A stretch of DNA of 64,000 bases, from the NCBI RefSeq assembly GCF_907164915.1, contig NC_061862.1:126613641-126677640 (forward strand), read 5' to 3'. The notes below the pieces were generated by a model. That model saw only the letters and a list, made by a program, of their open reading frames with translations, had not been told where the DNA came from and did not search any database. Below are positions 11,313 to 39,422 of this stretch, in pieces. A program made the translations under genes and the position numbers. This DNA comes from Impatiens glandulifera. Lineage: Eukaryota > Streptophyta > Magnoliopsida > Ericales > Balsaminaceae. Every line of letters begins with the position of its first letter. The stretch's first letter is position 1.

Positions 11313-14300
11313 TCATAACATGTTGGGAGATCCTTGACAACTGCTCTTGGAGTCTACCATCCAAGAATCTTGGACTTGAGCTGCAAATTGCAAGTTCCAA
11401 ACAACGTCCTCAACCGAAGGCCTATTGCTTGGCTCGTCTAAGAGGCACCTCAAACATATCTCCATTATTGTCTTCAACGACTCGTCTGAACAGTCTTTTT
11501 GTATCGAGGGGTCAATGATACCTCTTCGACCTACCACATCGTCCGCTCTCAAGCTTACTCGTAGCTGAATGCCCAAAAGGAAATAAGTAAAAAGAAAATT
11601 AGTTTTAAGAAAGGTATTCAAAACTGAACACATTATAGGATGCTTTTCTATTGGAAGCACACCATTTCTCTTATAATTCTCATTTAGATGTAAATCTAGA
11701 TAGGATGACTTTGAAAACAATGTGTTTCTGAATTTAGCTCGACACATATTCATAAATTTATTAACAGTTCTTCTGCCAGATAAAGACACCACTCCACTCC
11801 CCGAACCCAATCGACCAATTATTACTTTTTTTTTAACACCACCCTAAAGAGTTGAAAGATACTTTGTTGAAACAAACAAGAAGACTTACAAGGTCCCTAG
11901 CAACAAGAATGGCATTTGCAGACATAATGGCCCTTCCCATGATAAGTTCAAGTAAAATTACTCCGAAATCATAGATATCCTTCTTGTCCTCATGTCCAAC
12001 CCTGAATAGATTTGATAGATGAAACATTTCCTTAAAAGTGGAATGTTTATAGTACATAACTCATGCCTATTTTGTTATAAAATGATTTCGATCATAATTC
12101 ATAATCCAGAAAAATCTACATTTTGTTGTGTTTGCAAAAATCACAATGATTTATAAAATACTTTAGATTATGATCCATACAAGAATCTGTAAAACAATTG
12201 AAGCCAAAAATCACACAAGATCTAGCCAAAAATAAGATTGTGACAAAATAAATATTTCCATATGATAGTTTGGCCAAGTGGACTAAGGTGCTAGATTAAG
12301 GTTCTTGGCCCGCAAAAAATAAAAATAAAATACCTATTTCCAAATAGCCTAATTGTTTTTTTCTTTTTGTTTGGAGAAGACAAATAAAATAAGCATATTT
12401 TCATTACCTTATCTTCTCATTAGTTTCAGAAGAAGAAGTTCCAGAAGCCACCTGAAAATTTTTACAAGATATTTATGAGCTTAGTTTAGTTATTTCATAA
12501 AAAAATATTCATTCTTACCATTCTCTTATCTTCATTCAAGAAGGGAATGTTACAAGTGCTTATTTTTGCAATTAGATTGTGATCTAACATCACATCTGTT
12601 ATCTTCAGATTGTTTGAGAAGATTCCTGGCACGATTCTCGTATGGAGAAACTGAATACCCTTAGCAACTCCAATGGCGGCAGCAATCCTTTGTGCCCATC
12701 TGAACTTTTGTGCGACAGTTCTTTCTGTTTTAATCACAATAAGAAATGAGGAGAGCTTTTGCATTTGTATTGAACCAAAAATAAAAACATTTTTTACCAG
12801 AAATACAGTCCCTGAGAGTCGTCCTGTTTGGGATAAATTCCAACAGAAGATACACAGTGATGACACTTGAATCATCTGGGCAGCATTCAAAGCAATGACC
12901 AATGGCACTAATCAAGTTACAATGCCTCAATTTTGATATCGACTCAATTTGGCGCGTATACAATTGAGTACTATGCTTCTTCTTCATTTTCAAGCTCTTA
13001 ATAGCCACCATTGTACCATCTGCTAGTGTACCTTTAAAAACCTGATTTTCAAAGACATGACAGGAACATGTTTAAGTCTTAAACTTTATAACTAAGCTTG
13101 AAGAATCATTTATATTTTCTACACAAATAAAAAATATATAGTACTTGTAGTTCATTTAATAGTATTCTTACATTTATATATACTAAATTGAACTTGTTTG
13201 ATGTGGCTTTTTTAGATTTAATCAAACAATTTTTCATCATCAATTATTTATTCCATCAAATCATCAACTAAAATAATAAATACTAATAATACTTTGATGA
13301 TTTGACCTAAATAAACAATTTCTACATCAAATACTATTCTTTTCGAAAAAAATATTATTTTGAAATAACTCCCCATCAAACAGGACCCAACCCATTGTAT
13401 GTGCATAGAGGATATTTTAGTTAGATAAGGAAACATATGAGTAGGCAAACCTTGCCAAAAGGTCCTTCACCAATTAGATTGATCAAACTGAAGTCATTAG
13501 TAGCTTCCTTGAGCTCCTCCAATACAAAAGTTCGATAAGGAGGAAGGCCAAGAGCACCAATCTTCATTGTCTCAGAAATATATCCTGTCAATCATCAAAA
13601 CAAAATAAAATCAACAAGTTCACATTATGTTTTTGTTATTTTTGAAGAAAAAACCAATTGTTACTGCTCAATAAAATCAACAAGTTCACATGTTCTCATT
13701 TTTTGAATTTTGATCTGAATTCGGATTCAAATGAAAACCGCCAATAAATTTTTGAATCAGTATTTTTTGTTTCCAAACATTATCTCATTTTCCACATCAA
13801 AATGAGATATCTCAACCAAAAAAGTGTTTTCAATGAGATCATGTTTTCAATCCAGTTTCAATGAGATATCTCACATAGAAAATTGTTTTCAAGTGGGATT
13901 GTGTATGATTATCTTTTCCACTTCTTGTTGCTTCTAAAATATACACAAAACTGAGAAAGTATCATTATTGAATCCCAAATACATAAGAAAAGAAAATAAG
14001 GGTAGAATCCTTACTAGCATCTGTCAGCATCTTCAATGTATTTGCAGGATTTACTCTCTCCAGAATCATTCTTGTTTGTGGTGCCTTAATCAAATTCACA
14101 CTTCTCAATCTTCCAGCAAACACGAACAACAAACTGCACAAAACAAGCCCAAAACCGACCCCACCCACTAAAGCCAACACAATAACCGCCGTCCTAACTG
14201 GTTTCCTAATCCGGTCTCTTGGCGTAACGTTAACAGCCAGAGCCTCATTATGACAATAAACATAAGGATGCTGTTTTTGCCCATGGCTGTGATTCAAACA

Positions 14301-15368
14301 GTTACCATCATACTGAAAAACCATTCTTTGTGATAAACAACAAGTAGGTAATTCGCCTGTTAACCGATTCGACGACATATTGACATAATCAAGAACGTCG
14401 CCACATGAAGTGTTTTCAAAGAGGAAACCAGTTAATTTGTTATCAGAGATGTCAAGATAAGACAATGAAGGAAGTGACATCAGTTGTGGCATGAATGGAC
14501 CAATAAAACCGTTCATGGAGATATCAAACTTTTCAAGATGGTAAAATGAGGTTAAGTTTTCTGGGATGCTGAATCCAAACATGTTCTTCCTAAGAACCAG
14601 ATGAATCAACTTATTAGGCAAATAAGGAAAATGAGGACCCAATTCGTTTTCCTCAAGGTCCAGAATCTGAAGGTTAGTCAATTTGGTGAGATTAGGAACT
14701 TCTCCAGACAAATTGTTCATACCCAGTTTCAGAATTCTAAGGTTTTGCAATCTAGCCAATGAACGTGGAACAGAGCCATGAAATGAATTGCTACTCAAAC
14801 TTAAAACAGTCAATGAAGATAAAGAAGCAAACCAAACAGGGATTTCACCGTTGAATCTATTGTTATCGAGAACAAGTGTTTGAAGGTTGACAAGGGATGA
14901 AACTTCCACCGGAATGTCGCCGGAGAAGTAATTTGATGTCAGATTGAGTATCTCCAAGGAGGAAAGAGACGCGATTGAAGTCGGCAACGGTCCCCATAAA
15001 TCAAGAGAGACTAAAGAAAGAACCTTTAAGCTGGGGAGATTAGCTAGGTTAGTGAAGAACAACTGTGAGGAGAAGTTCTGCGGTAAGTCATGTGGATGAA
15101 ACCAACTGACCCCTGAAATGTGCAGTTGGGTTACGTTTTCTGCGTAGCAGACGATGGTGAGAGATGGGTTTGGTTCGAAATTGCAGAAATCTGTGGCTTC
15201 GTTCCAATTAGTGAGAGTAGACTGTGGATAGTTAAGATGGTTTCTGAGATTGAGTAAGGCTTGGGATTGAGATGGAATTAGTTGAAGTGACTGTGAGATT
15301 GAAGTAGTAGAGAGAAGAAGAAGAAGAAGAAGAAAAAGAATGGAGATGAAGAAGGATGGGTTTGCCAT
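11313..15368 (-). CDS. LRR receptor-like pseudokinase (At1g14390/At2g02780 type, LRR VI)
   Basis: Seven exons join in phase: 15368-14015, 13584-13451, 13041-12798, 12724-12519, 12451-12408, 12001-11890, 11564-11313 (2346 nt, 781 aa). All introns are GT-AG; one is only 73 bp. The product is a plasma-membrane receptor. A signal peptide (MANPSFFISILFLLLLLLL) is followed by leucine-rich repeats (about 100-365), a transmembrane helix (about 393-419) and a kinase-like domain (about 480-765). The glycine loop (GEGPFGKV) and VAIK lysine (about 511) remain. The HRD position reads IVPG (about 608-611) and the DFG position STCN (about 633-636), so catalytic loop and metal-binding Asp are missing. This is normal for the family, which the Arabidopsis annotation calls 'probable inactive'. 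Family length is about 740-790 aa. An upstream in-frame ATG (15392) would add eight residues and spoil the signal peptide. Confidence 0.93.
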
Positions 15369-15398
15369 AGAACATGAATGTATGTCAGTCACTCATAA

Positions 15399-21471: not shown

Positions 21472-22368
21472 ATTAGAAAAAAATTCACACGAATAAGGAT
21501 AAAAATAAAATAAATTAAAAAAATTATAATAATATTTATTCAATGTTTAAAATTATTAAAATAAAAAATATAACGCTCTCATCCCACATTTTATTCACTT
21601 CGATAAACAACTTATTTTCTCACATGTTTCATCATATATTTTTTTTCGAATGAATCTCTTATTTCGTGACTTTACACTTTCACTTTGTCAATTAAATATT
21701 TAATTCATATTTTTTAATAATTAGTATCGTGACCTCACACTTTGGTCAATTAAATATTTGATTCATATTTCTTTAACCACTTTCAAATGATACAAGTCTA
21801 TTATCCCTCGACAAACCACATCTCAATCACATTTGGTTAAAGATTGTACTTGATTTGTTAGGTTGCAAGTTCGAAACCTACAAATAATATTTTAAAATTT
21901 ATTTTTAACCGTTTTAAGTTTATGAGCGGGTCAACCCACAATTCGACCCAAGTATCTATTTACTCTCACATAAATATCCAAATTAACTACAACTCTCGAC
22001 CCAGCAATCCGGACACTTAAAAAATTAAGCATCATTATATATATATATATATATAGATTAGTCAGTTAAAAATTTGAACTTTTATTGTTAGAATGTTTCG
22101 CGTTCATCAAATTTCGTGTTGAATCTTAAATATAAAGTATTGTTAGCCTAGTTGGTTAAAGAGTTGTATCTTTTTTTGTTAGGTTGCAAGTTCGAAACCT
22201 ACAAATAACATTTTTAAATTTATTTTTAACCGTTTTAAGTTTATGGGCGGGTCAACCCACAATCTGACTTAAATATTCATTTACTCACATAAATATCCAA
22301 ATTAACCACAGCTCTCGACCCAGCAATCCGAACACTTTAAAAATTAAGCATCATTATATATATATAGA
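21472..22368 (-). mobile_element. Helitron copy (minus) with a duplicated 5' end
   Basis: Read on the minus strand, a 5' terminus (TC followed by TATATATA...) sits at 22057 and a second one at 22368. The roughly 310-bp 5' region is therefore present twice, head to tail. The body matches 60195-60802. The 3' end near 21472 is decayed; hairpin and CTAG are not intact. Confidence 0.75.
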
Positions 22369-24296
22369 TTTTAACACCGATTAAATATAAATTTTTAACA
22401 AACAATTTCTTACATAACTGGATCAACCCACTGAAAACTTTATCTAATTTTTTTCTTTTTTATAATTTAATGCTCTATTTAGTTCCGAAAATACCTCTAT
22501 TAATACCTTACAACTAATAAGTTAAAAGGTCATTCCTCTATTCAATCCTCTATATTTGGTTTTGGTTGGTGCTCACTAAATTTATATTGTATGAGTCTAA
22601 AATATTTGACTAAGTATTCGTTTAAAGTCTTGATCTTTTAATATCAAAACTAGTGGTATGTGATAATTTTAGAATATTATTGAGATAAGCATGTTCAGTA
22701 TTCTTGTCACTATTTTGTACTTTGTTTCCTTGTCATTATTTTGATGAAACATTAGGAAGAAGTCTTAGGATAAATTTAGTTAAGATTATATTCAAGTTAT
22801 TCGTTTCATTTCAGCTTATTGACAGATATATTTGATAAAATTTAGTTTATTTTAATCGCTGAGTAAATTTAATTTAGAGTTTATGCGTCTAGTTTATTTA
22901 TTTTTTATATTATAATATTAAAAAATAATTTATTTTAAAATAAATTATATGAATATATATTAATTTTTATAAGTTTTTATTAATATATAATTTTAAATGT
23001 ATATATTTATATTTAGTATGAATATGATATAAATGTATATATGTTTTTATTATGATTTATTTATATCTATTCTTAAAAAAGAGTAAAATTATTTTTGTAC
23101 TTTTAAGTAAGTTATTAAAAAAATGTAATGAGAAAAAAACGATGAAATTATAAGCTTAAAAGTTGGAGGCGAAGGTCTGTTTGATTATAATTTTTTTGTA
23201 TTAGCTATTAATTAAAATTGCTAGAATAGATTATTACGAAGCGTTCGAATTATAAGCTGAATCAAACTTGTCTTATAATATGCATTTAGCTTTTATAATT
23301 ATTCATAAGTCAATTCAAATCTGATTGCTACTACTATCTAACAAACATATATAGTTTTATTGACTTGGTTTACTGTTGATCTCTCAAATATTTCACAAAG
23401 TAGAGTCTTTGGTTTTTTTTTAATCACTAATTGAATAAGAGTATGTTAGAATATTTTTGAGATAAGTATATTCAATATTATTGTTCATAGTAAAGATAGA
23501 AAGTTGATAATTACCATCTTAGTGACATATTTATAGAAAATAAGAGATATTTGTTGAGGTATTGGTTGGACTAAAATATTGAAAGTGACAAATTTTATGT
23601 GTTTTTTTTAAGAGTATAGATTATATTTATTTTATTTAGATAAAGTTGGTTGAACTCAACTGTAGATTATAATACATGATATTTTTTAATTTATATATTC
23701 TCGACATAATTGATATAATTTTTGCAATAGCTAATTAGTTTGACATTATTTTCGTTTAGACTATATATTATTAATATTTTTTTGTTATTATAATTTTATT
23801 ATTTATTCGAATATCTTAATTTCAAATTATTCAATTGTAATATTAACTAGTTATATATATTATTAAAAATAAAGTGTGATGTCTGGCGTGAGGGTCGATA
23901 TTTGTCGAGTTATCGGTTATGATAAAATTGTCCAAAGCAATCCGGTAAGAAGTCAACAATAATGTATTTAGAGAAGATCGTGTTTGAAAAAAGATCTTGG
24001 TAAAGATCTTGATTGTCATAATTTTCTAGAATCAAGCTTAAGAGGTTGGTAATTACAATAAAATAATATTATATTAGTGTGTAAGAATATATTTAAATTG
24101 AATACATCAAATTTTATGAGAAGCTGAAATATTTATTTCTAAGGCTTACTCGACATATTTTTCTTGAGTTAAAAACTAGTATGACACTTCAGAATTATGT
24201 TCTTTCGCTTTCATTCAAACGATGTAAGTGAGAATCAAACCTTTAATATATAATTTATACAATATAATAATACTAGTTTTAATTTATATCAAATAA
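22369..24296. other. AT-rich intergenic, nothing recognised
   Basis: No gene is seen. A loosely similar sequence of about 45 bp (AGAATATT-ATTGAGATAAG) occurs at about 22671 and 23449, suggesting two decayed copies of an old repeat. Confidence 0.45.
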
Positions 24297-25067
24297 TCTA
24301 TATATATAATGATGCTTAATTTTTAAAGTGTCCGGATTGCCGGGTCGAGAGCTGTGGTTTATTTGGATATTTGTGAGAGTAATGGATACTTGTGTCGGAT
24401 TGTGGGTTGACCCGCCCATAAACCTAAAACGGTTAAAAATAAAATTAAAAATGCTATAGGTATGGTTCAAACTTGCAACCTAACAAAAACAAGTACAACC
24501 TACTAACCAACTAAGCTAATAATACTTTATATTTTAAATTCAACCCAAAATTTGATAAACGCATGACATTTTAACAATATAAGTTCAATTTTTAAAGTGT
24601 CCGGATTGCCGGGTCGAGAGTTGTGGTTAATTTGGATATATGTGAGAGTAAATGGATACTTGGGTCGGATTGTGGGTTGACCTGCCCATAAACTTAATAC
24701 GGTTAAAAATAAAATTAAAAATGTTATAAGTATGGTTCGAACTTGCAACCTAACAAAACAAGTACAACCTTTTAACCAACTAGACTAATAACACTTTATA
24801 TTTTAAATTCAACCCAAAATTTGATAAACGCGTGACATTTTAACAATATAAGTTTATCTTTTTAACTAACTAATCTATATATATAATGATGCTTAATTTT
24901 TAAAGTGTCCGGATAGTCGGATCGAGAGATGTGGTTAATTTGGATATATATGAGAGTAATGGATACTTGAGTCGGATTGTGGGTTGACCCGCCCATAAAA
25001 ATTTTACCGTAATATTTTTTTCACGTTTTTATATTATTACTCGTGCAAATGCACGGGATACATGCTA
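24297..25067 (+). mobile_element. non-autonomous Helitron with three tandem 5' regions
   Basis: It starts with TC (A before it) in TCTATATATATAATGATGC. The 5' region recurs from about 24582 (lacking the first bases) and again complete from 24874. The 3' end has a perfect 5-bp hairpin, CGTGC-AAAT-GCACG (25041-25054), then CTAG at 25064-25067 and T. This is the Helitron terminus rule with insertion between A and T. It contains no Rep/helicase coding. Confidence 0.85.
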
Positions 25068-25529: not shown

Positions 25530-26048
25530 AAATGTGTTAGATAAATTCATACCGGTTCGAATAAACCTAACTTAAACAAACTTCCCATGCAGGGACAAGG
25601 AACCGGACCGGATGAACAAGAGAAAACCAACTGAAGAAACCGAACCGAACCGATCAAGAGTATTCGGTACGTGACCGCACAGAGGAAGGATCGGCCAAAG
25701 CTCAAAAACCGGAATCTTCATACAACCGATCAATCCACAAGGCAATCATAACCGGAAGAAGTCCGGTTACTTCACTATCAAAAGACATTCGGCCAAGTCA
25801 AGTGGACAACCTAGGCCAAGTCAAGAGGCCGACTAGTACAAGAAGACACTTTGGGTATCTGCTGAGAATGATACCAAAGGAACAGACTGAATACTTCCAT
25901 ATCCATGCAAGTCTGAGGAAAGACTGTAGGCTGCAGAAAACAGTACTACCGGATCCTTCTACTTCGGGATAAGTCAGAAAGGAAATCTTCAAAGTACAGA
26001 CAACTGTCCAAGCAGACAGTGCCTACATTGAGTAAAAGACAAACCCAG

Positions 26049-26136
26049 CAGGTTTGCTTTACAGACCGGCAGGTCTGAAACAGGATGCCAGGTCTGAGAT
26101 TGACCGTCAGGTCTGAGGAAAAGACCGCAGGTCTGA
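26049..26136 (+). promoter_or_regulatory. phased CAGGTCTGA repeats in the LTR U3
   Basis: The 9-mer CAGGTCTGA occurs at 26070, 26089, 26108 and 26128, with a diverged copy (CAGGTTTGC) at 26049. Start-to-start spacings are 21, 19, 19 and 20 bp, about two helical turns. They lie about 75-160 bp before the TATA box, where enhancer repeats are expected. The 3' LTR has the same at 38614, 38633, 38652 and 38672. Confidence 0.6.
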
Positions 26137-26164
26137 GACACTGAATCACTGCATCTCTGATCAG

Positions 26165-26219
26165 CCAATCAGATTCAAGGCTTTGAAATATGACCGTTGG
26201 CATATTTCACCTATAAAAG
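26165..26219 (+). promoter_or_regulatory. LTR core promoter: CCAAT and TATA boxes
   Basis: CCAAT lies at 26165-26169 and TATAAAAGG at 26212-26220, 43 bp later. Transcription of the genomic RNA should start about 30 bp downstream, near 26245. The same pair recurs in the 3' LTR near 38709-38764. Confidence 0.7.
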
Positions 26220-26874
26220 GAGGCAGTTGCAGAAGAGTAAATGTGGGACATCAAGCAGATATTGAGCAGTTACTAAGTGAGACAAACATTGAGATAACAA
26301 AAGCTAAGTGCATTTACTACAAGTGATAACAGTGTGGTATTCTAAGAAAGCCTAAGTGCTAAATTCTAAGTGTGTGTTACAATTTCGGTGTAAATTGTAA
26401 GAGTGTTATCGAGCAGGAAATAAGTCTCGATCGGATTGTATTTGTATTCCTTAGTGAATATCCTTCTCGCGGTTTCGAGAGGAAGGGGTGACGTAGGAGT
26501 TTTATCTCCGAACATCCATAAGATCTGTTGTGTTATTTACTTTCTGTTGGCTTCATTACATAACCGACTAATTTATCCATACCGCTCCAAACCGACTCCA
26601 TACTGACCATACCGAATATCCAGATAACCGAAACCGACCCACCATTCTTCAAATCTCCATCATCCGAAACCGATTCCGCCTATCATACACGTGTACCGCT
26701 TCAACCTGAAAGCAAACCTCTTCCGCGCTTGAACCTAGTTCAAGGGTTTGTGACAGGTTGTGTAGTATTGAAACCCCGGTGTTAATCTCTAACCGGATTA
26801 ACCACCACCCTACGAGTAAGAACCGCTAACCGGTCCAACCCCCGGTCCACCAGCGGCGACCTAGATCCTAACAA

Positions 26875-26888
26875 TTGGTATCAGAGCA
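26875..26888 (+). other. primer binding site (initiator tRNA-Met)
   Basis: TTGGTATCAGAGCAG follows the 5' LTR after one or two bases. It matches the complement of the 3' end of plant initiator tRNA-Met. Confidence 0.93.
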
Positions 26889-26912
26889 GTTAGTTTCAAT
26901 ACTCAAGCAAAC

Positions 26913-28751
26913 ATGTATCAGGATAGGCCTCCAATGCTAGAAGGTGATGACTTTGCCAACTGGAAGGCACGCATGCACCTACATCTAGTCACCTTGGATG
27001 ATGAAATGGAGTCCATTCTGACCGAAGGACCGATAGTCATTGATAAAGACAGAAAAGAATGGACAGCTGATGATAGGAGAAGGAACAATCTGGACAACCA
27101 TGCAAGAAACCGGATCTCCAACAGCGTAGACAGAAATACATACTGCAAGATCAGAGATTGCAAAACCGCGAAGGAGACTTGGAACACGGTCATCCAGATC
27201 TTTGAGGGAAATGAAAGAACAAAGGAGAACAAAATAATGGTGGCCACACAGAGATTTGAAAGCATCAAAATGAAACCAGGGGAAACTATGAAGGAATACA
27301 GTGACCGGTTCACTGGTGTATTAGATGAGTTAGCAAATCTGGGCAAGAAGTACGACAACAAAGAGGTCATTATGAAGGTCTTGAGATCTCTTCCGAGTGC
27401 TTGGGATATAAAGACGATGGTCATGAGAGAATCAAAGAGCCTACGTAAGATGAAATTATACGATGTATTCGAAGATCTTAAGGCATATGAGTTCGAGATG
27501 AATTCCAGAACCGAAGAGGAAGTCTCGGCCTCAACATCAACCAGAGCATTATTCACATCTACAGAACCGGCTGTACCTGCTTCTGTACGCACACCTGCAC
27601 CGATACCGGTCCCTGCACCCGCACCTATCAGAACAGCCGAACAGTTTACTGAGGACGCCATGGCCATGCTCGCACAGAAGTTTGGGAGGTTCATGAAAAG
27701 GAGCCAACCGACAAACAACTACTATGGTGACAAATCCAATATAAGATGCTACAACTGTAACTGTATGGGACACTTTAAGTGGGAATGCAGGAAACCAAGG
27801 AGGGATACCCAGAAACCGGAATATCAAAATGACAGAAACAATTATCAACAAGCCGGCGAAGGAAGTGAGGTACCGAAAGCACTGATAGCCGATGATGGAG
27901 GAAGCCTATGGGCTCACAGTGACAGTGACGATGACCTCACATGTCTCATGGCAAATGAGGAACAGGTATTTGACTCTCCCTGTGAAGAATTTACTAAAGA
28001 TGAGTTATATAATGCATTGAATGACATGGTAGAAGAATATAAGAACCTATTGACCATGTTACCTAAGCACCTCAACATCAAAACCGATCCCATAGTACCT
28101 ATCCCAGTAGAACTAGAGGTACCTATCATCACCAAACCGGAAGTCATACAATCTGATGATACTCATACCCTAGAAACCGAATTAGACTCTAAGATCGAAC
28201 AACCTAGTGAGTCGACTAAAGAACTAACCGAGAAAGAGAATGCCAGATTTCAGTATACGATGGCCGCCTATAGGAGATCTAGCGATATAGTAAAGAACCT
28301 GAATAAAGAATACAGGCATCCACGTTGTAAGAATGGCCTAGGATACACAGAGAACAGATCTAAAAAACGAAAATCCATATGGAAAGCAAAGCTTACAAAA
28401 AGAAACCTTCCCTTTATAAAATTCCTTAAGAGCACCTGCACAGCTGAAGAAGAGGAGACCGCATATTATAGGGAAGAAAAGACAAAGTATGACTATGTTG
28501 GCCCAACCGATTCATGGCTTGACCTTGAGAAAAGGAAAGCAGAAATCCTCAAATATAAGAAAGACTTCCCTGAACCGCGTAGGTTAAACTATAGATCAAA
28601 CCAAAGACCATCATCATTTAGGTCATCTGTAGGGAAACCGAAATACACCAGACCAAGTGTGAGGAGAACAGTTGAAACTTTAGCAAAGAAGACCGTTCGA
28701 TTTATCAAGGTTTGGGTACCTAAGGGACTAATCGCATGTGGACCCAAGTAA
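26913..28751 (+). CDS. Sirevirus gag polyprotein (capsid/nucleocapsid)
   Basis: 612 aa, intact. Residues 1-about 200 are the copia gag/UBN2-like capsid region ([38 protein letters not shown]). A Pro/Ala-rich hinge follows (about 220-245). A single zinc knuckle, C-x2-C-x4-H-x4-C, spans residues 279-292. The C-terminal 300 residues have acidic then basic stretches and end [14 protein letters not shown]. The ATG lies 39 bp after the LTR and is the first after the primer site. The TAA at 28749-28751 overlaps the start of the pol frame. The protein packages the RNA into virus-like particles; the long C-terminal extension is typical of Sirevirus gag and its role is not known to me. Confidence 0.95.
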
Positions 28752-31700
28752 ACGTGGGTACCAAATAGTTGTAAATATGTACATTTTGCAGGATCCAAAG
28801 AAACGGCTAGGAAACTCCGAATGGTTCTTGGACAGCGGTTGCTCCAGACACATGACCGGAAATAGCAATTTGATAATCGACATCAGATCAGTAACCGGTG
28901 CTCCAATTACCTTCGGTGACAACTCTAAAGGTAAAACCGTGGGCAAGGGTAAGATTGTCCATGGTAACCTAACTATTGATAATGTACTTCTAGTTGAAAA
29001 CCTACGTTTTAATCTACTTAGCATTAGTCAGATGTGTGATGCCGGATACACAGTAGAATTCCTTAAACATGCATGCTTAGTTAAGAACTCTCAAGGGATA
29101 GTGCTACTAACCGGAAATAGGATAGGTAACATCTACAAAGTAGACTGGAAAACTAGAGTAGAACACCCTATATGCATGATAGCTAAAACTGATCAAACCT
29201 GGCTATGGCACAAAAGACTAAACCATCTAAACATGAAAACCTTAAACTACATTCGTGGTAAGAAACTAGTTGAAGGCATCCCGGATATAGTATTTAACCA
29301 GGATAAGGTTTGTTCAGCATGCCAGATGGGTAAACAAACTAGGTCATCGTTTAAGAGCAAAGGAAATCTCCAATCTAGCCGATGTCTAGATCTTCTTCAC
29401 ATGGATTTATTTGGACCAATTCAGGTCATAAGCCTAGGAGGTATGCTTTACACCATGGTGGTTATTGATGATTACTCTAGATATACATGGGTAATATTTT
29501 TACCATCTAAACGTGAAACGGTATCAAACCTAATCAACCTCCTTAAGCGTTTGCAAAATGAAAAATCAACTCGTATAAATTGCATTCGAAGCGATAGAGG
29601 TACCGAATTTACTAATAGCACACTAACTGCATATCTTGATGAATCCGGCATTAGACACGAGTTGTCTAGTGCTAGGACTCCTCAACAAAATGGCCTGGCC
29701 GAGAGAAGAAACCGGACTCTCAAGGAAGCCGCACGGTCCATGATAGCCGACTCCGGCATTGCTCAGAAATATTGGGCTGAAGCTATCAACACTGCATGCC
29801 ATACACAAAATCGGTCTTTGATTAACAGATTTCACAACAAAACACCATATGAGGTTTATTTTAACAGAGTTCCTAAACTTAAATACCTCAGGATTTTCGG
29901 CTGTAAATGTTATATTCATAATAATGGTAAAACTCAACTCACTGCTTTTGATGCAAAGACCGACACCGGCATTATGCTAGGATATTCGTCGGTAAGTAAA
30001 GCATATAGAGTATATAACAATAGAACTGCAACCATGGAGGAAACAATTCACGTTGTTTTCGATGAATCGGTTGAAAGCAACACTACTTCATGCTTTGATC
30101 TACATAACAGACTGGAAAATAATGATATCCATTCTGATAGCGAAGATGAGACCCCGGTCTTCAGGGGATTTGTCCATGACCTAATGGGTAATATTGATAC
30201 CCAGCCGGATCAAGCTGTTTCACAGCAGGAAGCTGACACTTCGGTCCAACCCGAGGAAGCCGGTCGGTCTGACAATCTTGGTCAGCCTACCGACATGTCT
30301 AGCCTTGATCAAATAAACGGTAACTTGGTAGACACCCTTGAGCTGAATCTCAGAAGAAACAGTAAACATCCTCCTGAGCAAATTATAGGTGACCCTTCAG
30401 AACCTGTTCGAACTAGGAGTCAACTTCTGGAAGGATATTTTAACTCTGCTTTTATATCTCAGATTGAACCGAAAAGAATAGATGAAGCATTGTCAGATCC
30501 GGACTGGATCTTGGGAATGCAAGAAGAACTAAACCAGTTCGAGAGTAGTAAAGTCTGGTACTTAGTTCCCAGACCGAAAGATAAATCGGTCATAGGAACA
30601 AGATGGGTATTCAGAAACAAACTCAATGAGGACGGTTTGGTCACGAGGAACAAAGCCAGATTAGTGGCTCAAGGCTACAAACAGGAAGAAGGCATTGACT
30701 TTGAAGAGTCATTTGCTCCTGTAGCCAGGATTGAAGCCATTAGGATTTTTCTTGCATTTGCTGCTTTCAAAAATTTCAAAGTTTTTCAAATGGATGTTAA
30801 AAGTGCATTTCTGAACGGTGATATACGTGAAGAAGTGTACGTTGAACAGCCACCCGGCTTCAAAAATGCGGCATTTCCAAACCATGTATACCGGCTGAAC
30901 AAAGCTTTATACGGTCTAAAGCAAGCACCAAGAGCCTGGTATGATACACTAACCGCATTCCTATTAGAGCATGATTTCACCATCGGTTCGGTGGATAAGA
31001 CCTTGTTCAAATTTGAAAAGAAGGAACATATCCTACTTGTTCAAATCTATGTAGATGATATTATTTTCGGTTCCACCGATCCAAAGCTCTGTGACAAGTT
31101 CTCAAAAATGATGACTGACAAATTTGAAATGAGCATGATGGGAGAATTAAGTTTCTTCCTAGGTCTTCAGGTTAAACAACTCAAGGAAGGAACATTCATC
31201 AGTCAACCTAAATATACCAAGGAGCTTCTGAAGAAATTCGGTATGGACACATGCTCATCGGCGGCCACTCCAATGAGCTCATCAATCAAACTGGACAGGG
31301 ACGATGAAGGCCAATCAGTAGATCAGATTGCATACCGAGGCATGATCGGTTCTCTACTATACCTGACAGCGAGTAGACCGGATATCCTATTTGCAGTTGG
31401 TGTGTGTGGGAGATTTCAAGCAAATCCAAAGCAATCTCACTACACAGCCGCAAAGAGGATACTGAAGTATCTAAAGGGCACACCTGATGTCGGTCTGTGG
31501 TACCCAAAGGACTCATCATTCAATCTAACGAGCTACTCAGACGCAGACTATGCAGGCTGCAAGATTGACAGAAAGAGCACCAGCGGAACATGTCAGTTCC
31601 TTGGTGACCGACTGGTATCATGGCATAGCAAGAAGCAAACATCCGTGGCTACATCAACCGCAGAAGCTGAATACTTGGCGGCCGGAAGTTGCTGTTCTCA

Positions 31701-32013
31701 ACTTCTCTGGATCCAACAGCAGCTGAAGGACTTCGGTATTTCAGCCGAAGAGTCCCCAATTTTCTGTGACAACACAAGTGCCATTGCGATTACATACAAC
31801 CCGGTTCTCCATTCCAGAACCAAGCACATCGACATAAGGCATCATTTCATTCGAGAGCATGTCACACTGAAGCATATCCGGCTGGAGTACGTACCGACCG
31901 ACCAACAAGTAGCCGATATCTTCACAAAGCCTCTACAGGAAGCTAAGTTCTCTCAATTTAGACTTACTCTCGGTTTAACCGACATCAGTCAGATCCTTCC
32001 TAAGGATACTTAA
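28732..32013 (+). CDS. Sirevirus pol: protease, integrase, RT, RNase H
   Basis: The frame is +1 relative to gag and opens at 28732, so it overlaps the gag end by 20 nt; 1091 codons follow the GTG at 28738 (numbering used here). It has no AUG before 28777, so expression needs frameshifting or reinitiation. Landmarks are protease [11 protein letters not shown] (DSG at 32-34) and the integrase zinc segment (HKRLNHLN...CSACQMGK). Catalytic residues D223, D286 and E322 have the family's 35-residue D-E spacing. RT has [12 protein letters not shown] and YVDD at 771-774. RNase H has [25 protein letters not shown] and [14 protein letters not shown]. All catalytic residues are present and there is no internal stop, so the element looks competent. 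Confidence 0.96.
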
Positions 32014-32567
32014 AGGAAAACCGGCTTCGACAGATAAAACAGGCAGTTCTTCTTAAGCTGTTGACTTTTGAATTCTCAAGATGCCTATGGAAGAACCGCC
32101 CAGCTCATCAGATAAAGTAAACCGACCGGCTACTTGGTGGAAACACCAACTAACCGCATCGGGATGAACAACTGATGACTGACCGGTTCGGAAGCAGGTC
32201 ATCCTAGATTATTTGAATTTCACAGATGTGGAACGACTACCAATGTTTGTAGATATTTGTTCTGAAATGTTGCCTTTTCAAAGAAAACTGGTCGCGCCTA
32301 AAAAGACGTGAAGATCTTTTGATATCTTTCATGGCTCAGGCCTATGACCGACACCTAGACTGCAAACATACCCATTTTGGTGAAAAACCTTTTATCCTGC
32401 AGTTAATATATGTCATTCCATTTAATGCCTGGACAATAGGTTAGCCCCAAAAACAGTATTTAAAGGAAGCGCTATTTCACTTAATCACTCACAACGCAAT
32501 ACACTCTTTCCCTCACTAAAGCAAAGAAACTCACAAGAACATCATCTCTCTCTAAGGCATCCTAACA
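32014..32567 (+). promoter_or_regulatory. spacer with a TATA-like box before accessory ORF A
   Basis: This 554-bp non-coding spacer follows pol. TATTTAAAGG at 32457-32466 lies about 110 bp before the ATG of ORF A. It is followed by a CT/CA-rich leader (CACTCACAACGC..., CTCTCTCTAAGG) that resembles a plant 5' UTR. Promoter activity is inferred from sequence only; this box is the weakest of the three. Confidence 0.45.
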
Positions 32568-33281
32568 ATGTCTATCTTCACAAATATCCTACAAGTGAAC
32601 TTCGAATCATGCTCCAGTACAGATCACTATGATCTATACCGAATGATCAAACAGCTGGAGGATACCGGTCTCCAGTACTTCCTGGATGATAATCAACTCA
32701 TCTATCCTCAGTCCGTCATTGAGTTTTTCAACAATGCCAGGGTGTACCGGGGGACACCCTACTTCAACACCCACATCCAATCAAAAGTTAGGGGTGCCAT
32801 CTTTGACTTCACCGAGCAAGACTTTGCTCGGTGCTTCAATCTGCCCAAACAAGGGCTCACGGACCTTAATCCTCCAGCCGACACCAAGGCTGAGGTCTCT
32901 CTCTCCCTCTCTCGGTCAGATGAGCCAATCGATGATCATGGCTCCAAATATCCCTTGAGGGCTGAATACCAGCTCCTCAATGACATAATAGGGAGGAGCA
33001 TCCTCGGAAAAGATGTAACCCACACATATTGCACGGTAACGTTCAATATGATGGCGGCCATCATAACGAGGACGCCGGTCAACTGGTCCAGGGTGCTGTT
33101 CGATGCCCTGATCTGGATAATCGGCACCAGGTCGGTGGCGTTCATTCCCCAGATCAGCCGGCTGTTTGAGGAGCTCGGGGTCCCAACCTGTCCAGGCGAA
33201 GGTTTGGACCGCAGCCAAGTGTTCACCAAGGAAATCATCGACTCGTTCTACGATCGGGTTGAAGAGAGGAGGAACCGTTAG
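32568..33281 (+). CDS. accessory ORF A (237 aa), paralogue 1
   Basis: Intact ORF of unknown function. It shares a layout with ORFs B and C. An N-terminal helix-rich segment (LEDTGLQYFLDD) is followed by VIEFFNNARVYRG and FNLPKQGLTDL near residue 100. RSILGKDVTH comes next, then TPVNWSRVLFDAL and FIPQISRLFEELGV. This is the pattern of the plant domain that I know as 'putative plant transposon protein' (Transposase_32-like, from memory). It is the least basic of the three. There is no signal peptide or membrane helix, so 'envelope' is not supported. Base composition and CCGG-rich style match gag/pol, so it belongs to the element. Confidence 0.85.
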   Translation: MSIFTNILQVNFESCSSTDHYDLYRMIKQLEDTGLQYFLDDNQLIYPQSVIEFFNNARVYRGTPYFNTHIQSKVRGAIFDFTEQDFARCFNLPKQGLTDLNPPADTKAEVSLSLSRSDEPIDDHGSKYPLRAEYQLLNDIIGRSILGKDVTHTYCTVTFNMMAAIITRTPVNWSRVLFDALIWIIGTRSVAFIPQISRLFEELGVPTCPGEGLDRSQVFTKEIIDSFYDRVEERRNR

Positions 33282-33769
33282 ATCACTCCTGCTTGCATCC
33301 GGTCATTTTGCTTCATGCACCGGATGTATTATTATTCAACTCAAATCTGACCATATCGGCTTCATCCATGTCCACTTCGGTTTTATTTCTGTTTTTTTAT
33401 TTCTGTATGACATATTTCGGCTTTATCTCTACCACTTTCGGTCTCTATCTAATCAATGTTGTTTATGTGATAAATGCACTTAATGAGATAATATTATTTA
33501 ATGAGATAACTCCCAACCACCTACATCTTTACTTTCCAACTAATCTGGCTGCTTCCCAACTACCATTTACCTCGAGACTTGCAATCTGCTCCTTCCCCAT
33601 GCATCATTAAAAGGGAAAGATTCTCTTCCTTAATAAGACAAAACTGACCATCAATGCTCAGATTTTCCCTCCAAAACCGATTCTATATAAGGAGCTATCC
33701 TCTCCTCATTTTCTCACATCCACAATCACTTGTATTCCTTTTAAATCTCTCTCTCTCTACATCATAATC
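33282..33769 (+). promoter_or_regulatory. spacer with a TATA box before accessory ORF B
   Basis: TATATAAGG at 33684-33692 lies 86 bp before the ORF B ATG. A CT-rich leader (TCTCTCTCTCTACATC) precedes the ATG. Just upstream of the TATA box stands TTTTCCCTCCAAAA (33663-33676), the exact reverse complement of a motif found twice before ORF C. The arrangement looks like a class II promoter; activity is inferred. Confidence 0.55.
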
Positions 33770-34477
33770 ATGCCAAGCCGAACTTTGGGAAACTTCCTAA
33801 TTGTTGATTTCGGCTCATGTTTGGCCGAATGGGACTATGATCATCCGAAGAAACACATGTTTGAAAGTCTCATTGTTACCGGTCTTCAAGCTTTCCTTGA
33901 TGAATCCGGTCCCATACTGACGGAAGATGTCAAGGAATTTTTCAGAAATGCCGTCAACTGGGGAGATCGCATTGTAACCACTGTAAGGAATCATACCTTC
34001 CGGCTTGATGAAGCCGAATTTGCCACCCTCTTCAGTCTGCCCAAAGAAGGGTTCTCTGACTTTCCGGCCATGGAGGGCGCTGATGAATACTACTATGGGC
34101 TCCGCTGTTTAGGAACCTTAGATACGGTGGAAACCCATGGGTTGAAAACCCGTCTCGGTCGTAGCACTCAGCTACTTCTTGAGATTGTCACTCGGTCCAT
34201 TCTGTGCCAATCTCTAAATCAGCGGTATTCAAGGAATACCTACCACATGATGACCCACATCTACAACCACACGCCCATCAATTGGGCGGCGGTTCTCTTT
34301 CAAATCTTGAGGAAAATGGTGCGGACCAAGAAGGGTCTCGGCTTTGCACCCCACATCAGCAGGTTGATTCTCAAGCACCGGCCAGATTTCGGACCGGGCA
34401 CACCGACATCCCCCTCAAATATTCTCGATAGAGATGCCGTGGTGGAAAAGTATTCCAAAATGGTGCTTACTGCTTAA
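33770..34477 (+). CDS. accessory ORF B (235 aa), paralogue 2
   Basis: Intact ORF, paralogous to A and C. Matching blocks are VTGLQAFLDESG, VKEFFRNAVNWGDR, FSLPKEGFSDF, TRSILCQSLN, TPINWAAVLFQIL and FAPHISRLILKH, all in the same order and spacing as in ORF A. No membrane segment, signal peptide or catalytic motif is recognised. An AATAAA at 34525-34530, 48 bp after the stop, could end a separate transcript. Function unknown. Confidence 0.85.
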   Translation: MPSRTLGNFLIVDFGSCLAEWDYDHPKKHMFESLIVTGLQAFLDESGPILTEDVKEFFRNAVNWGDRIVTTVRNHTFRLDEAEFATLFSLPKEGFSDFPAMEGADEYYYGLRCLGTLDTVETHGLKTRLGRSTQLLLEIVTRSILCQSLNQRYSRNTYHMMTHIYNHTPINWAAVLFQILRKMVRTKKGLGFAPHISRLILKHRPDFGPGTPTSPSNILDRDAVVEKYSKMVLTA

Positions 34478-34969
34478 GCATCTTTATTTAAATGTCTTTC
34501 TTTCGTCCTATCGGTTTCCATTCTAATAAAAATATCGTTTCAGTTTTGATCGCTTCTCTTTAATCTCTGTATCTTTCTAACATAACCGGCTTAATATCGC
34601 TCGTATCCGGTTTCATAAAATCTGCTTAAAACTGTTAAACACCGATCAATCAAAATATCTGAAACACTATTAGAAACCGATCTGCCATTCGGTCTCAAAG
34701 AAAAGACTGCGTCACCGATGACATAGGCAAAGTTTTGGAGGGAAAAACTCCCGCTCAAAGACACCGCACACCGTTTCGCACGAAACCACGTCCTTTCATT
34801 TTGGAGGGAAAACTCCCGCCCATTCATGATGGGACGGTTTGGCTTCCAAACCGTGCCTATAAAAGGGAGCCTTCGTCATATTTTTTCATTCTCACACAAA
34901 TTCACTTTCTCTCTCTAAACTTCTAAAATCCTTTGAAGCCGAATTCTTTCATTCTAAAACTCTTCAAAC
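34478..34969 (+). promoter_or_regulatory. spacer with a TATA box before accessory ORF C
   Basis: TATAAAAGG at 34858-34866 lies 112 bp before the ORF C ATG, followed by a CT-rich leader (CACTTTCTCTCTCTAAAC). Two copies of TTTTGGAGGGAAAA lie upstream (34733-34746 and 34799-34812), each continuing into ACTCCCGC. This is the best promoter candidate of the three: TATA box, duplicated upstream motif and 5'-UTR-like leader. Activity is inferred. Confidence 0.55.
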
Positions 34970-37762
34970 ATGGGTCGTGATTCGGCGTTGTTCAAACTAT
35001 ACTCTCAAGTGGACTTCGAGGAGATTCGGCAGAACGGAACGGCCGAAGCGAAAGAAGTAATCGACCGACTGATTAAAACTGGTTTGGAATATCTACTAGA
35101 CGGTCCCCACGTAATATACAAGGACGCGGTCGAAGAGTTCTTCAAAACCGCAACCGTTTCCTACGACAGGATCCTCGCAACGGTTTGCGGCTCCCAAATA
35201 GAAATCACCGAAGCTGTAGTGGCCGAAAGTCTGCATCTCCCAACTACCGGTATGGACGCAACAGCAGAGATGGACGATGACGTTTTTAAGATGGCTTGCC
35301 GCCGTGTATCAGCAACAAACAAGCCGGTTCCCACATCCGGAAAGAAACAACTGCTGAAACCGGAGCTCATCCCGGCGTGTGACGTTTTTGCCAGGGCGAT
35401 ACTGGCAAGGGGAGGAAATTTCAGCAATCTGACCAAAGACAAAATCAGAATGATTTTTCGTCTAATGGAAGGCACAGAGATCAACTGGGCAAGATCGGTC
35501 TTCAGCAACCTTATGGAAATGGTGAGACCGGACTCAGACAGGTCTTGGGGGTATGCCGTACAACTCGGCAAGATCTTCTTACATCTGAAGATCAAAGTCG
35601 GTCCCGGTGTTGGAATACTAAAACGCAGCATCATCCGATCAAGGCATTTTCTTCCAAGAAAGCAATCGGCCTCCAGTTCCACAGGTGGCCGAAAGAAGAA
35701 AGCCGCAAAGAAAAATACCCCGGCAAAAGAAAACACCGGAGGAAAGAGAAAAGAAAAAGTAATTTTCGAAGACCTACCTCAACAAACAGAGGATGAGGAG
35801 TGGGACGATGAGGAAGCCGTCACAGAGGGAACCGAAAATAGAACGGACCATGACGATGGTCTCTCGGCTCAAAGTCCAAACAATACCGAACATAGCATAA
35901 ATCCTGAAACCACCGAGGGTGAGGACGGGGTTGACACAGGTGCCAATAATGAGGGCCTCAGCAGGGAAGAAGCCGATGAGGCCGAGGCCGAAAGATTAGC
36001 CCAGAATATCTTTCAGGGCATTATCAGAAGAGACGAGGATGTCATTGACCTATATCTGGAGTGGCATGAGTACCGGTTTAATACAAAGTATAAAGACATC
36101 CTATCGGACCACTCGCAAGAACACTACATCGCCAGGTTGGAGGAAGTGGAGGACAATATCCTACGTCTCACCAAATCCAATACCATTCAGGAAATACAAT
36201 GCCGAACTTGCCTACTGATACCGAGAAGTCATCTTCGACAGATAAGAAGGCGTATCAGAAAGATTAAGGAAGAATATGCCGAAGGGGGGTCGGTGTCTAC
36301 AGTAGCACCGCTGGTATTAGAAAAGCTTGAAAAGGGCAAATTGGAAATACGCCAAGAGATAGCGCGGTTAGAAGCTATATGCAATCAGAAACAAGTTCCG
36401 GTGTATATCGCTCCGGTCATCGAAGATTTTCAAACAGACTGGACAACAGAGGACACTGTGACACCAAGGGACATTGAGACACCACTGCCAGAAAATGATG
36501 AGGTACCGACTTCGAAGTCTGTTGAGGTCCAAACTTTGGAGGATGCGGTTCCAGACCTGGAAGCTGAGATACCGACATTGGGAGTTGAAGCTCCAAACTC
36601 AGAAATTGAGGTAATAAACTTAGAGGATTCGGCTCAATTAGAACCTCCAAATGAAGAGGAGGCACCGATAAATCTTGACGAAAGAGCCGATCCAGATCCT
36701 ACCGAGCAATCAACGCCTCCACCACCACCGGTAGTCACCGCTCCAGCGCCCCCTCAGGAATGGATTGATGACCTATTTCAAAAATTTGAAGTAGTTGTTT
36801 CGAAGCGGATTGAGGACCGACTCCGGCAGTTTGACACTTCAATATCAGAGAAGATTGATGACCGCATACTTGACCACAACGTCTCCAAGCTTCAACCGCT
36901 CAAGGATAGATGCGAGAACATTTTCGATACGGCTATGAAGTTCGCCAATGCGACGAAGCTGGTTGTGGATCACACTCAAACACGCCTGGAGCAACTCAGC
37001 ACCGGACTATGGGAAGAGGCCGGTGAGCGAGAAAACTGTGCTCAGCATGTTGTAGCTCTGGAGGGTCTCACTTCGGAATTAAAGAAGGATTTCGAACGGG
37101 TCGACCCAACAATTGAACGAGTCTCGGTACTGGAAAAGAAGAACGAAGATCTCGTGGCCGAAGTAAAGGCACTTACTGCACAGATGGCCGAAATCCTGAA
37201 AGCTAAGGAAAACGCGGATGCCGCGGCTATAGAGGCCGATGCTCTGGTTGCCAAAAGAATCCAGGAAAGGCTGGACGCCGAAGTCAGCAAAGACAAAGAG
37301 GCGCCGCGATCGTCTCAGCTGACCGAAGAAGAAATAGAGGCCGAGAGAGTAAGAAGGGCTGAGATCATGTATCCAGGGTTTGCTGAGCAAATAGCACGAC
37401 AAGCTGCGGATGATGCCGAACGGCTGGAGAGACAAAAACGTGGGCTGGAAGAATTCTCCGAAGCACACAAGAAGAAAAAGAAAGTGGCCCCCTCTGCTTC
37501 AGCACCGGTCGCCTCCGCCTCAGCACCAAAGAAAAGAAAGAAGCCGGCTCCTAAGAAAGTTCGGATTGCGGAGATGCTCAATATAATTTCTGACCCGGTC
37601 GAGACGGGTACTTCGCAGCAAGACAACCAAGTCGAGGATGAACTCGAAGAACAGCTGCGGTACCGATCTAAAAGACCACGACACTCCACGCAACCGCAAC
37701 CGCAACCGCCACCGCAACCAAAGAGAAAGAAGAGTGCCTACGAATTCACGGACTCAGAATAG
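34970..37762 (+). CDS. accessory ORF C (930 aa): paralogous domain plus acidic, coiled-coil and basic regions
   Basis: Intact ORF. Residues 1-about 215 repeat the A/B domain (IKTGLEYLLDGP, VEEFFKTATVSYDR, LHLPTTGMDA, ARAILARGG, TEINWARSVF). Next is a Lys/Arg tract (GRKKKAAKKNTPAKE), then a long acidic, Glu/Asp-rich part (about 260-350). A mixed region with Pro-rich linkers (about 480-600) follows. A long coiled coil runs from about 605 to 845 (for example ERVSVLEKKNEDLVAEVKAL). The C-terminus has KKKKK, APKKRKKPAPKKVR and RSKRPRHSTQ. There is no membrane segment. The basic tracts look like nuclear-localisation or nucleic-acid-binding signals. Some Sireviruses carry one long coiled-coil 'env-like' ORF at this place; here the composition argues for an internal nuclear protein. 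Function unknown. Confidence 0.85.
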   Translation: MGRDSALFKLYSQVDFEEIRQNGTAEAKEVIDRLIKTGLEYLLDGPHVIYKDAVEEFFKTATVSYDRILATVCGSQIEITEAVVAESLHLPTTGMDATAEMDDDVFKMACRRVSATNKPVPTSGKKQLLKPELIPACDVFARAILARGGNFSNLTKDKIRMIFRLMEGTEINWARSVFSNLMEMVRPDSDRSWGYAVQLGKIFLHLKIKVGPGVGILKRSIIRSRHFLPRKQSASSSTGGRKKKAAKKNTPAKENTGGKRKEKVIFEDLPQQTEDEEWDDEEAVTEGTENRTDHDDGLSAQSPNNTEHSINPETTEGEDGVDTGANNEGLSREEADEAEAERLAQNIFQGIIRRDEDVIDLYLEWHEYRFNTKYKDILSDHSQEHYIARLEEVEDNILRLTKSNTIQEIQCRTCLLIPRSHLRQIRRRIRKIKEEYAEGGSVSTVAPLVLEKLEKGKLEIRQEIARLEAICNQKQVPVYIAPVIEDFQTDWTTEDTVTPRDIETPLPENDEVPTSKSVEVQTLEDAVPDLEAEIPTLGVEAPNSEIEVINLEDSAQLEPPNEEEAPINLDERADPDPTEQSTPPPPPVVTAPAPPQEWIDDLFQKFEVVVSKRIEDRLRQFDTSISEKIDDRILDHNVSKLQPLKDRCENIFDTAMKFANATKLVVDHTQTRLEQLSTGLWEEAGERENCAQHVVALEGLTSELKKDFERVDPTIERVSVLEKKNEDLVAEVKALTAQMAEILKAKENADAAAIEADALVAKRIQERLDAEVSKDKEAPRSSQLTEEEIEAERVRRAEIMYPGFAEQIARQAADDAERLERQKRGLEEFSEAHKKKKKVAPSASAPVASASAPKKRKKPAPKKVRIAEMLNIISDPVETGTSQQDNQVEDELEEQLRYRSKRPRHSTQPQPQPPPQPKRKKSAYEFTDSE

Positions 37763-38078
37763 GGACTATCCTTCTTTTTCTTACTTACCTTAGTATTTTT
37801 GCTTAGTACTTTCCGGTTATCTATGAATATATAAAGTTATTTTTGAATACCGGCCTTATTTTGCATTTCTACATGATTTTGATAATTTTAAATAAAATAA
37901 TCAAAAAGGGAGAAATTGTTAGATAAAAGATAGAGATTCCTCCAAAACCCCTCCCCCAAAATTTTTCGAAAAATTCTCTAAATCTTTTTCAAAATCGGCC
38001 AAACAAAACAACCGGCCTACGGTTGCAAACTTACATAATTTTGATAATTTTAAATAAAATAATCAAAAAGGGAGAAAT
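37763..38078 (+). other. 3' untranslated region with a duplicated polypurine tract
   Basis: AATCAAAAAGGGAGAAAT stands directly before the 3' LTR (ending 38078). The same sequence, with about 35 bp before it and the first bases of the LTR (TGTTAGATAAA) after it, also occurs 162 bp upstream (LTR-like start at 37917). Between the copies is an unrelated C-rich stretch (about 37935-38030). Only the second copy abuts the LTR. Multiple polypurine tracts near the 3' LTR have been described for Sireviruses. Confidence 0.85.
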
Positions 38079-39417
38079 TGTTAGATAAATTTATACCGGT
38101 TCGAATAAACCTAACTTAAACAAACTTCCCATGCAGGGACAAGGAACCGGACCGGATGAACAAGAGAAAACCAACTGAAGAAACCGAACCGAACCGATCA
38201 AGAGTATTCGGTACGTGACCGCACAGAGGAAGGATCGGCCAAAGCTCAAAAACCGGAATCTTCATACAACCGATCAATCCACAAGGCAATCATAACCGGA
38301 AGAAGTCCGGTTACTTCACTATCAAAAGACATTCGGCCAAGTCAAGTGGACAACCTAGGCCAAGTCAAGAGGCCGACTAGTACAAGAAGACACTTTGGGT
38401 ATCTGCTGAGAATGATACCAAAGGAACAGACTGAATACTTCCATATCCATGCAAGTCTGAGGAAAGACTGTAGGCTGCAGAAAACAGTACTACCGGATCC
38501 TTCTACTTCGGGATAAGTCAGAAAGGAAATCTTCAAAGTACAGACAACTGTCCAAGCAGACAGTGCCTACATTGAGTAAAAGACAAACCCAGCAGGTTTG
38601 CTTTACAGACCGGCAGGTCTGAAACAGGATGCCAGGTCTGAGATTGACCGTCAGGTCTGAGGAAAAGACCGCAGGTCTGAGACACTGAATCACTGCATCT
38701 CTGATCAGCCAATCAGATTCAAGGCTTTGAAATATGACCGTTGGCATATTTCACCTATAAAAGGAGGCAGTTGCAGAAGAGTAAATGTGGGACATCAAGC
38801 AGATATTGAGCAGTTACTAAGTGAGACAAACATTGAGATAACAAAAGCTAAGTGCATTTACTACAAGTGATAACAGTGTGGTATTCTAAGAAAGCCTAAG
38901 TGCTAAATTCTAAGTGTGTGTTACAATTTCGGTGTAAATTGTAAGAGTGTTATCGAGCAGGAAATAAGTCTCGATCGGATTGTATTTGTATTCCTTAGTG
39001 AATATCCTTCTCGCGGTTTCGAGAGGAAGGGGTGACGTAGGAGTTTTATCTCCGAACATCCATAAGATCTGTTGTGTTATTTACTTTCTGTTGGCTTCAT
39101 TACATAACCGACTAATTTATCCATACCGCTCCAAACCGACTCCATACTGACCATACCGAATATCCAGATAACCGAAACCGACCCACCATTCTTCAAATCT
39201 CCATCATCCGAAACCGATTCCGCCTATCATACACGTGTACCGCTTCAACCTGAAAGCAAACCTCTTCCGCGCTTGAACCTAGTTCAAGGGTTTGTGACAG
39301 GTTGTGTAGTATTGAAACCCCGGTGTTAATCTCTAACCGGATTAACCACCACCCTACGAGTAAGAACCGCTAACCGGTCCAACCCCCGGTCCACCAGCGG
39401 CGACCTAGATCCTAACA
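38079..39417 (+). repeat. 3' LTR of the Sirevirus-like element
   Basis: Same length as the 5' LTR (1339 bp), at a constant offset of 12,544 bp throughout. The only difference I found is T at 38092 against C at 25548. It is followed by the target duplication AAATG. Confidence 0.97.
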
Positions 39418-39422
39418 AAATG

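Follow-up and report, generated by a model that had tools for sequence, protein, structure and literature searches.

In Impatiens glandulifera (Balsaminaceae, Ericales), a 13.9-kb Ty1/copia retrotransposon bounded by long terminal repeats (LTRs) carries three open reading frames (ORFs), here called A, B, and C, between pol and its 3′ LTR. The element lies in the window analyzed here, the 64-kb stretch C1:126613641-126677640 from a 654-Mb genome, and positions below are counted within that window. The three ORFs probably form a functional accessory-gene cassette, in which a promoter-plus-gene unit appears to have been triplicated and each gene has a putative promoter of its own. A separate TATA-like box stands before each ORF, a point absent from the first-pass annotation of this DNA. 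The cassette consists of the following features.

32457..32466, plus strand: TATA box preceding A, TATTTAAAGG, 111 nucleotides (nt) upstream of the ATG
32568..33281, plus strand: accessory gene A, 237 amino acids (aa), PF20167-like
33684..33692, plus strand: TATA box preceding B, TATATAAGG, 86 nt upstream of the ATG
33770..34477, plus strand: accessory gene B, 235 aa, PF20167-like
34858..34866, plus strand: TATA box preceding C, TATAAAAGG, 112 nt upstream of the ATG
34970-37762, plus strand: accessory gene C, whole, 930 aa
34970..35644, plus strand: head of C, residues 1-225, PF20167-like domain
35645..37762, plus strand: tail of C, charged, with heptads near residues 714-755 and basic runs resembling a nuclear localization signal (NLS) near its end

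All three ORFs are open and colinear behind pol, as the first-pass annotation had reported. Of the shared motifs it listed, the order holds and the first requires correction from EFF-x-A to EFF-x-x-A. Pairwise amino acid identity ranges from 26 to 36%, with BLASTP aligning A and B at 82/228 identical positions (E 1e-34), A and C at 60/228 (E 4e-19), and B and C at 55/189 (E 2e-17). Shuffle tests (300 per pair) give z = 46 for A-B, 34 for A-C, and 32 for B-C. On these comparisons, A, B, and C are paralogous beyond doubt, and the earlier proposal of one accessory gene repeatedly duplicated is borne out by highly significant similarity between single sequences, as opposed to profiles. A Transposase_32-like domain had likewise been anticipated. 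Each protein matches PF20167 (Transposase_32) weakly over most of the profile length, scoring 24.5 (A), 32.2 (B), and 22.1 (C) bits, all below the curated cut-off of 45 bits, and all eight rows scanned from alignment A2 match it at E <= 5 (best 6e-14). Homologues in the equivalent gene position do exceed the cut-off, namely C-like coding stretches in a diverged subfamily of eight loci (L059-L066), which score 50.0-56.3 bits and contain stops in 5/8 cases. The tail of C spans ~700 residues and ends in KKKK/KKRK runs; the coiled coil previously ascribed to it persists as a heptad stretch in a rough heptad scan. C may have acquired its tail, or A and B may each have lost theirs. Elsewhere in the genome, many PF20167 matches fall in open frames of ~960-1040 aa, which may be further families with C-like genes.

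The TATA-like boxes are conserved in position. A TATA-like string lies between -125 and -66 at 36/36 A, 38/38 B, and 34/35 C starts (108/109 overall), against a shuffle expectation of 0.08 (A), 0.10 (B), and 0.05 (C) strings per locus. Intervals outside this range are mostly devoid of such strings, except that from -300 to -200 before B. The string before C is the same as the TATA string of the LTR itself at 26212, and the internal boxes are of the LTR type. In the diverged subfamily, the boxes are retained with changed letters, as TATTTAA[AG] before B (7/8) and TATAAATA before C (8/8), with distances measured from the point at which the match begins; in two of the B cases that point is not an ATG. 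The single copy examined for A in this subfamily has TATATAAG. The leaders that follow the boxes are pyrimidine rich, with CTCTCTCT runs. Absence of AG from the B leader was considered as an anti-splicing argument and dropped, being true of the window copy yet of just 13/38 loci. Start-to-start spacing in the window is 1202 nt from A to B and 1200 nt from B to C, with medians of 1226 (35 loci) and 1197.5 (34 loci), respectively, the near-equal values that joint duplication of promoter and ORF in a single unit would be expected to give.

Such a unit, ~1.2 kb long, would comprise a TATA promoter, a short pyrimidine-rich leader, and one PF20167-like ORF. Its tandem duplication to three would have preceded the division of the family into subfamilies, with one copy, C, bearing the long tail. 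The duplicated unit would have included the promoter, and, once the element is integrated, RNA polymerase II would transcribe each gene from an individual promoter, separately from the genomic RNA that the LTR drives. The sister domains may act together or as specialized forms in a host-facing step.

Comparison of related copies shows strong purifying selection on each gene. The ratio of nonsynonymous to synonymous divergence (dN/dS) was calculated by the Nei-Gojobori method, and values are medians over pairs with dS>0.02, which are non-independent, with broken ORFs excluded. The median is 0.094 for A (33 sequences, 524 pairs), 0.130 for B (38 sequences, 688 pairs; B was the search query, which biases its value downward), 0.139 for the C head (34 sequences, 547 pairs), and 0.296 for the C tail (11 sequences, 55 pairs). 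In the 242 A pairs with dS>0.3, dN/dS is 0.111 with none above 0.14, at a dS near saturation (median 1.49). Variable columns fall at codon positions 1/2/3 in proportions of 27/16/65% for A, 13/9/38% for B, and 21/16/59% for the C head. The ORFs of relatives are thus mostly intact and constrained, at dN/dS values of 0.09-0.30 that are not near 1. The first-pass annotation had deduced selection from the openness of all three ORFs in a very young copy; selection is upheld, but the argument for it rests on relatives and not on the copy's youth, because the triplication is old and common to the diverged subfamily.

Copies related to the cassette are abundant in the genome. The best 150 of 17,929 first-look candidates found with B are 89-100% identical and 147/150 are stop-free, while the best 150 of 18,967 candidates found with A are 83-100% identical and 137/150 stop-free; being best matches, both lists favor intact copies. 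Within the 64-kb window itself, no further copies of the LTR, A, B, or C were found. Detailed analysis covered 30 shorter loci (~3.7 kb), one of them the window copy, and 20 longer loci (6.5 kb), of which 11 revisit places in the shorter set; with the window copy counted once, 39 loci are distinct. The A-B-C order is kept in 38/39, with a complete A in 33/39, a complete B in 38/39, and an open C head in 34/39. Of the 21 loci covered across C, 11 have a complete C and 9 have all three genes complete. A exists as two forms ~74% identical in DNA (L039-L058), identity to the window copy is 93-98% for B and 86-99% for the C head, and A and C head distances correlate at just 0.16 over 28 loci. The occurrence of two A forms beside a near-uniform B, together with this weak correlation, suggests that modules are exchanged between copies by recombination. 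In one locus (L043, 1-830), an LTR is joined straight to the TATA region of A without gag-pol there; A and B are complete and C is broken.

The diverged subfamily provides insight into the age of the triplication. Its eight loci contain a B-like and then a C-like stretch, several of them broken. A further locus upstream of one of these (L067, upstream of L060) encodes a pol 87% identical in amino acid sequence (dN 0.08) and an A-like ORF 60% identical and broken in that copy, while in L059, L060, and L063 identity is 43-49% for B and 47-50% for the C head. With dN of 0.31-0.50 for the accessory genes versus 0.08 for pol, the accessory proteins have changed several times faster than pol; the copies that supplied B and C for this comparison differ from the copy that supplied pol and A. 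Homology in the C tail extends to residue 468-469 in this subfamily. In an eight-row tree, the A, B, and C groups each receive 99-100% ultrafast bootstrap support, and the B and C groups hold members of both subfamilies. On this phylogeny, the triplication is old and preceded the subfamily split.

Several observations weigh against a functional, separately promoted cassette. Further TATA-like strings lie 200-300 nt upstream of B, in 12 and 20 of 38 loci, so the strings alone are not decisive. The spacer DNA of the three units is no longer alignable, and the case that the promoter was co-duplicated with its gene is consequently drawn from position. The tree is small, and its A group consists of the two A forms without an A of the diverged subfamily. 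The loci were chosen as best B matches and are mutually related, which favors loci with an intact B and raises the pair counts artificially; neither A nor C was selected directly, though both are linked to B. In L029, A and B were matched and C had no match in the stretch covered, while L048 and L056 match C over only its first 34 and 94 residues, respectively. Evidence for a fold is also lacking, with a best match at an unconvincing E of 0.07 in a PDB sequence search and a mean predicted local distance difference test score (pLDDT) of 43.9 for an AlphaFold2 model of B built from the three window rows. A protein database search with B alone gave 0 matches among 186 candidates, and profile searches gave 1 among 3196 (alignment A1) and 1 among 3826 (A2), although such searches depend on shared words and carry little information on other plants. 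Both hits are the same protein (P0004, Impatiens glandulifera LOC124943500), the sole database relative found for the accessory proteins. Finally, C is not complete in 10 of the 20 longer loci, and in 3 of the 20 the A gene is interrupted or shortened. This incompleteness would also suit genes captured from the host, or decayed inserts, that do nothing for the element, an explanation largely contradicted by the low dN/dS, the conserved order, and the age of the triplication, and accordingly given very little credence.

Expression of A, B, and C from LTR-started RNA by splicing or read-through, with the TATA strings incidental, is an unlikely alternative with some points in its favor. Routes of this kind are on record for env-like genes, splicing in Bagy2 and stop suppression in SIRE1 (PMC2829016, PMC7264820). 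CAG followed by ATTTTCCCTCC, a possible acceptor, precedes the TATA of B in 34/38 loci, and AG occurs between TATA and ATG in 25/38 B leaders and, in the window, five times in the A leader and twice in the C leader. However, the 13 remaining B leaders contain no AG, and splicing requires no TATA-like string, whereas one is found at nearly every start and is kept with changed letters in the diverged subfamily. Suppression of a single stop as in SIRE1 does not fit, because 554 nt separate pol and A. Far less probable is the proposal that A, B, and C are Env-like proteins aiding passage between cells. Their position behind pol in sense orientation and the coiled-coil-like stretch in C are compatible with it, and Sirevirus 3′ ORFs are usually labeled envelope-like in the literature available. 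A simple hydropathy scan nevertheless reveals no clear transmembrane segment in the three proteins (best 19-residue values of 1.62 for A, 0.90 for B, and 1.17 for C), and basic NLS-like runs lie near the end of C in 12/12 copies scanned. A triplicated set of genes with individual promoters thus remains the preferred explanation.

The remainder of the element has a conventional organization.

25530..25534 and 39418-39422, no strand: target site duplication AAATG, left and right flanks of the element
25535-39417, plus strand: Ty1/copia element, 13.9 kb
25535..26873, plus strand: 5′ LTR, 1339 bp, with TATAAAAGG (TATA) at 26212 in mid-LTR
26876..26887, plus strand: primer binding site TGGTATCAGAGC, from sequence inspection, which we take to be of the tRNA-Met type
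26913..28751, plus strand: gag, 612 aa, Retrotran_gag_2, with a single CCHC knuckle at residues 279-292
28738..32013, plus strand: pol, 1091 aa, in a frame different from gag
37849-37927 and 38011-38089 (within 37849..38089), plus strand: 79-nt direct repeat, copies 89% identical
38079..39417, plus strand: 3′ LTR, single mismatch to the 5′ LTR

The LTRs, the primer binding site, and the domain order of pol, with rve (residues 218-315) ahead of RVT_2 (605-847) and hence integrase before reverse transcriptase, place the element in the Ty1/copia LTR retrotransposons. The copy is young, as its LTRs differ at 1 of 1339 sites. The 79-nt repeat before the 3′ LTR carries a second copy of the polypurine tract (PPT) region and of the opening bases of the LTR, and is a possible internal start site for plus-strand synthesis; the terminal PPT region ends at 38078. 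Directly upstream of the element, two arrays of direct repeats (21832-22394 and 24278-24999) are mutually inverted and ~2 kb apart. Further away, a 475-aa ORF on the minus strand (13965-15392) with leucine-rich repeats and LRRNT_2 is probably a host receptor-like gene or fragment, and pol fragments of other copia elements occur at 1154-1858 and 7184-8254.

The first-pass annotation had compared the element with Sireviruses, which it described as usually having none or one extra ORF at this place. The element resembles that group in its large gag, pol in another frame, mid-LTR TATA, and 3′ sense extra ORFs. The PPT octamer AGGGGGAG, in contrast, has 0 occurrences across the element, and a variant, GGGAGAAAT, occurs twice (37908 and 38070), inside the 79-nt repeat. 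For gag, where a coiled coil downstream of the zinc knuckle is typical of Sireviruses, a rough heptad scan picks up stretches only upstream of the knuckle. The element is best described as Sirevirus-like, with membership in the SIRE clade not proven because the octamer is absent. Published descriptions of the clade (PMC6317226, PMC2829016), as far as available, include sense ORFs between pol and the 3′ LTR of Ty1/copia elements (eORF-3′F, "ENV-like"), together with a large gag, differing gag and pol frames, a tRNA-Met-type primer binding site, a mid-LTR TATA, and a long linker, all likenesses to the present element. The element differs from those descriptions in having three paralogous ORFs with a conserved TATA box ahead of each, in having no detected transmembrane segment, and in lacking the octamer.

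The basic runs of C, the lack of a transmembrane segment, and fast divergence suggest, tentatively, that the products are soluble, that C is nuclear, and that they serve a host-facing role, the likeliest being to interfere with silencing or to act in some other nuclear step. A host-facing role would be in keeping with proteins that diverge rapidly next to a conserved pol. The last residues of C are identical in 12/12 copies, one of which ends one residue short. LC8-type [TVI]QT motifs in C were considered and set aside, as at least one occurs in 9/12 copies and none in 3. By analogy with VANC of VANDAL elements, silencing interference is the leading guess for function here; an anti-silencing accessory protein of that kind would be expected to lower the DNA methylation of its own family or to relieve its silencing. 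A more far-reaching and somewhat doubtful proposal is that the accessory region constitutes a self-contained, independently promoted three-gene regulon, which would maintain a constant supply of trans-acting nuclear factors, all derived from one duplicated domain, to keep host silencing at bay, with modules swapped by recombination. If so, production of A, B, and C would not require LTR activity and could perhaps proceed even from derivatives lacking gag-pol, such as L043 with its broken C.

Accessory genes behind pol are known from other plant elements. In sunflower Athila, a 3′ aORF(+) has partial similarity to Transposase_32 (PMC11728184), sharing with the present genes the PF20167 domain, the position behind pol, and a predicted nuclear signal. 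Athila is a Ty3/gypsy element for which, in the available text, one sense aORF with PF20167 is described and not three paralogues; the domain thus appears to recur behind pol in both superfamilies. Maize Grande gene23 (PMC7264820) is also an accessory gene behind pol with its own promoter and a nuclear protein, features that here are predicted, but it is a single antisense gene of a Ty3/gypsy element, likened by description and not by sequence. In the available parts of the literature surveyed (including PMC11963269, PMC3414828, PMC4093653, and PMC1142308), tandem paralogous accessory genes were not encountered in any copia element. Neumann 2019 (PMC6317226) reports that 74% of SIRE elements carry 3′ sense eORFs, in 19 groups with little or no similarity, from a count of ORFs >=250 codons. 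A (237 aa) and B (235 aa) would escape such a survey because they are shorter than 250 codons, illustrating how such genes can go overlooked.

Two questions raised in that literature become testable in this family. Neumann 2019 (PMC6317226), in the text available, asks if the extra ORFs of SIRE elements are functional at all, and if their dissimilarity reflects very fast evolution or different sources; here, strong purifying selection coexists with divergence several times faster than that of pol, while order and orthology are kept. An internal promoter for Sirevirus ENV was proposed by Peterson-Burch and Voytas (2002) and none was located, according to Bousios 2010 (PMC2829016), who likewise could not conclusively identify one; a TATA-like box at a near-fixed place before almost every accessory start now offers a candidate. 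If the duplicated unit did include the promoter, the cassette would provide a concrete model for how an LTR element gains separately controlled genes. The extra genes look like working parts of the element, not passengers.

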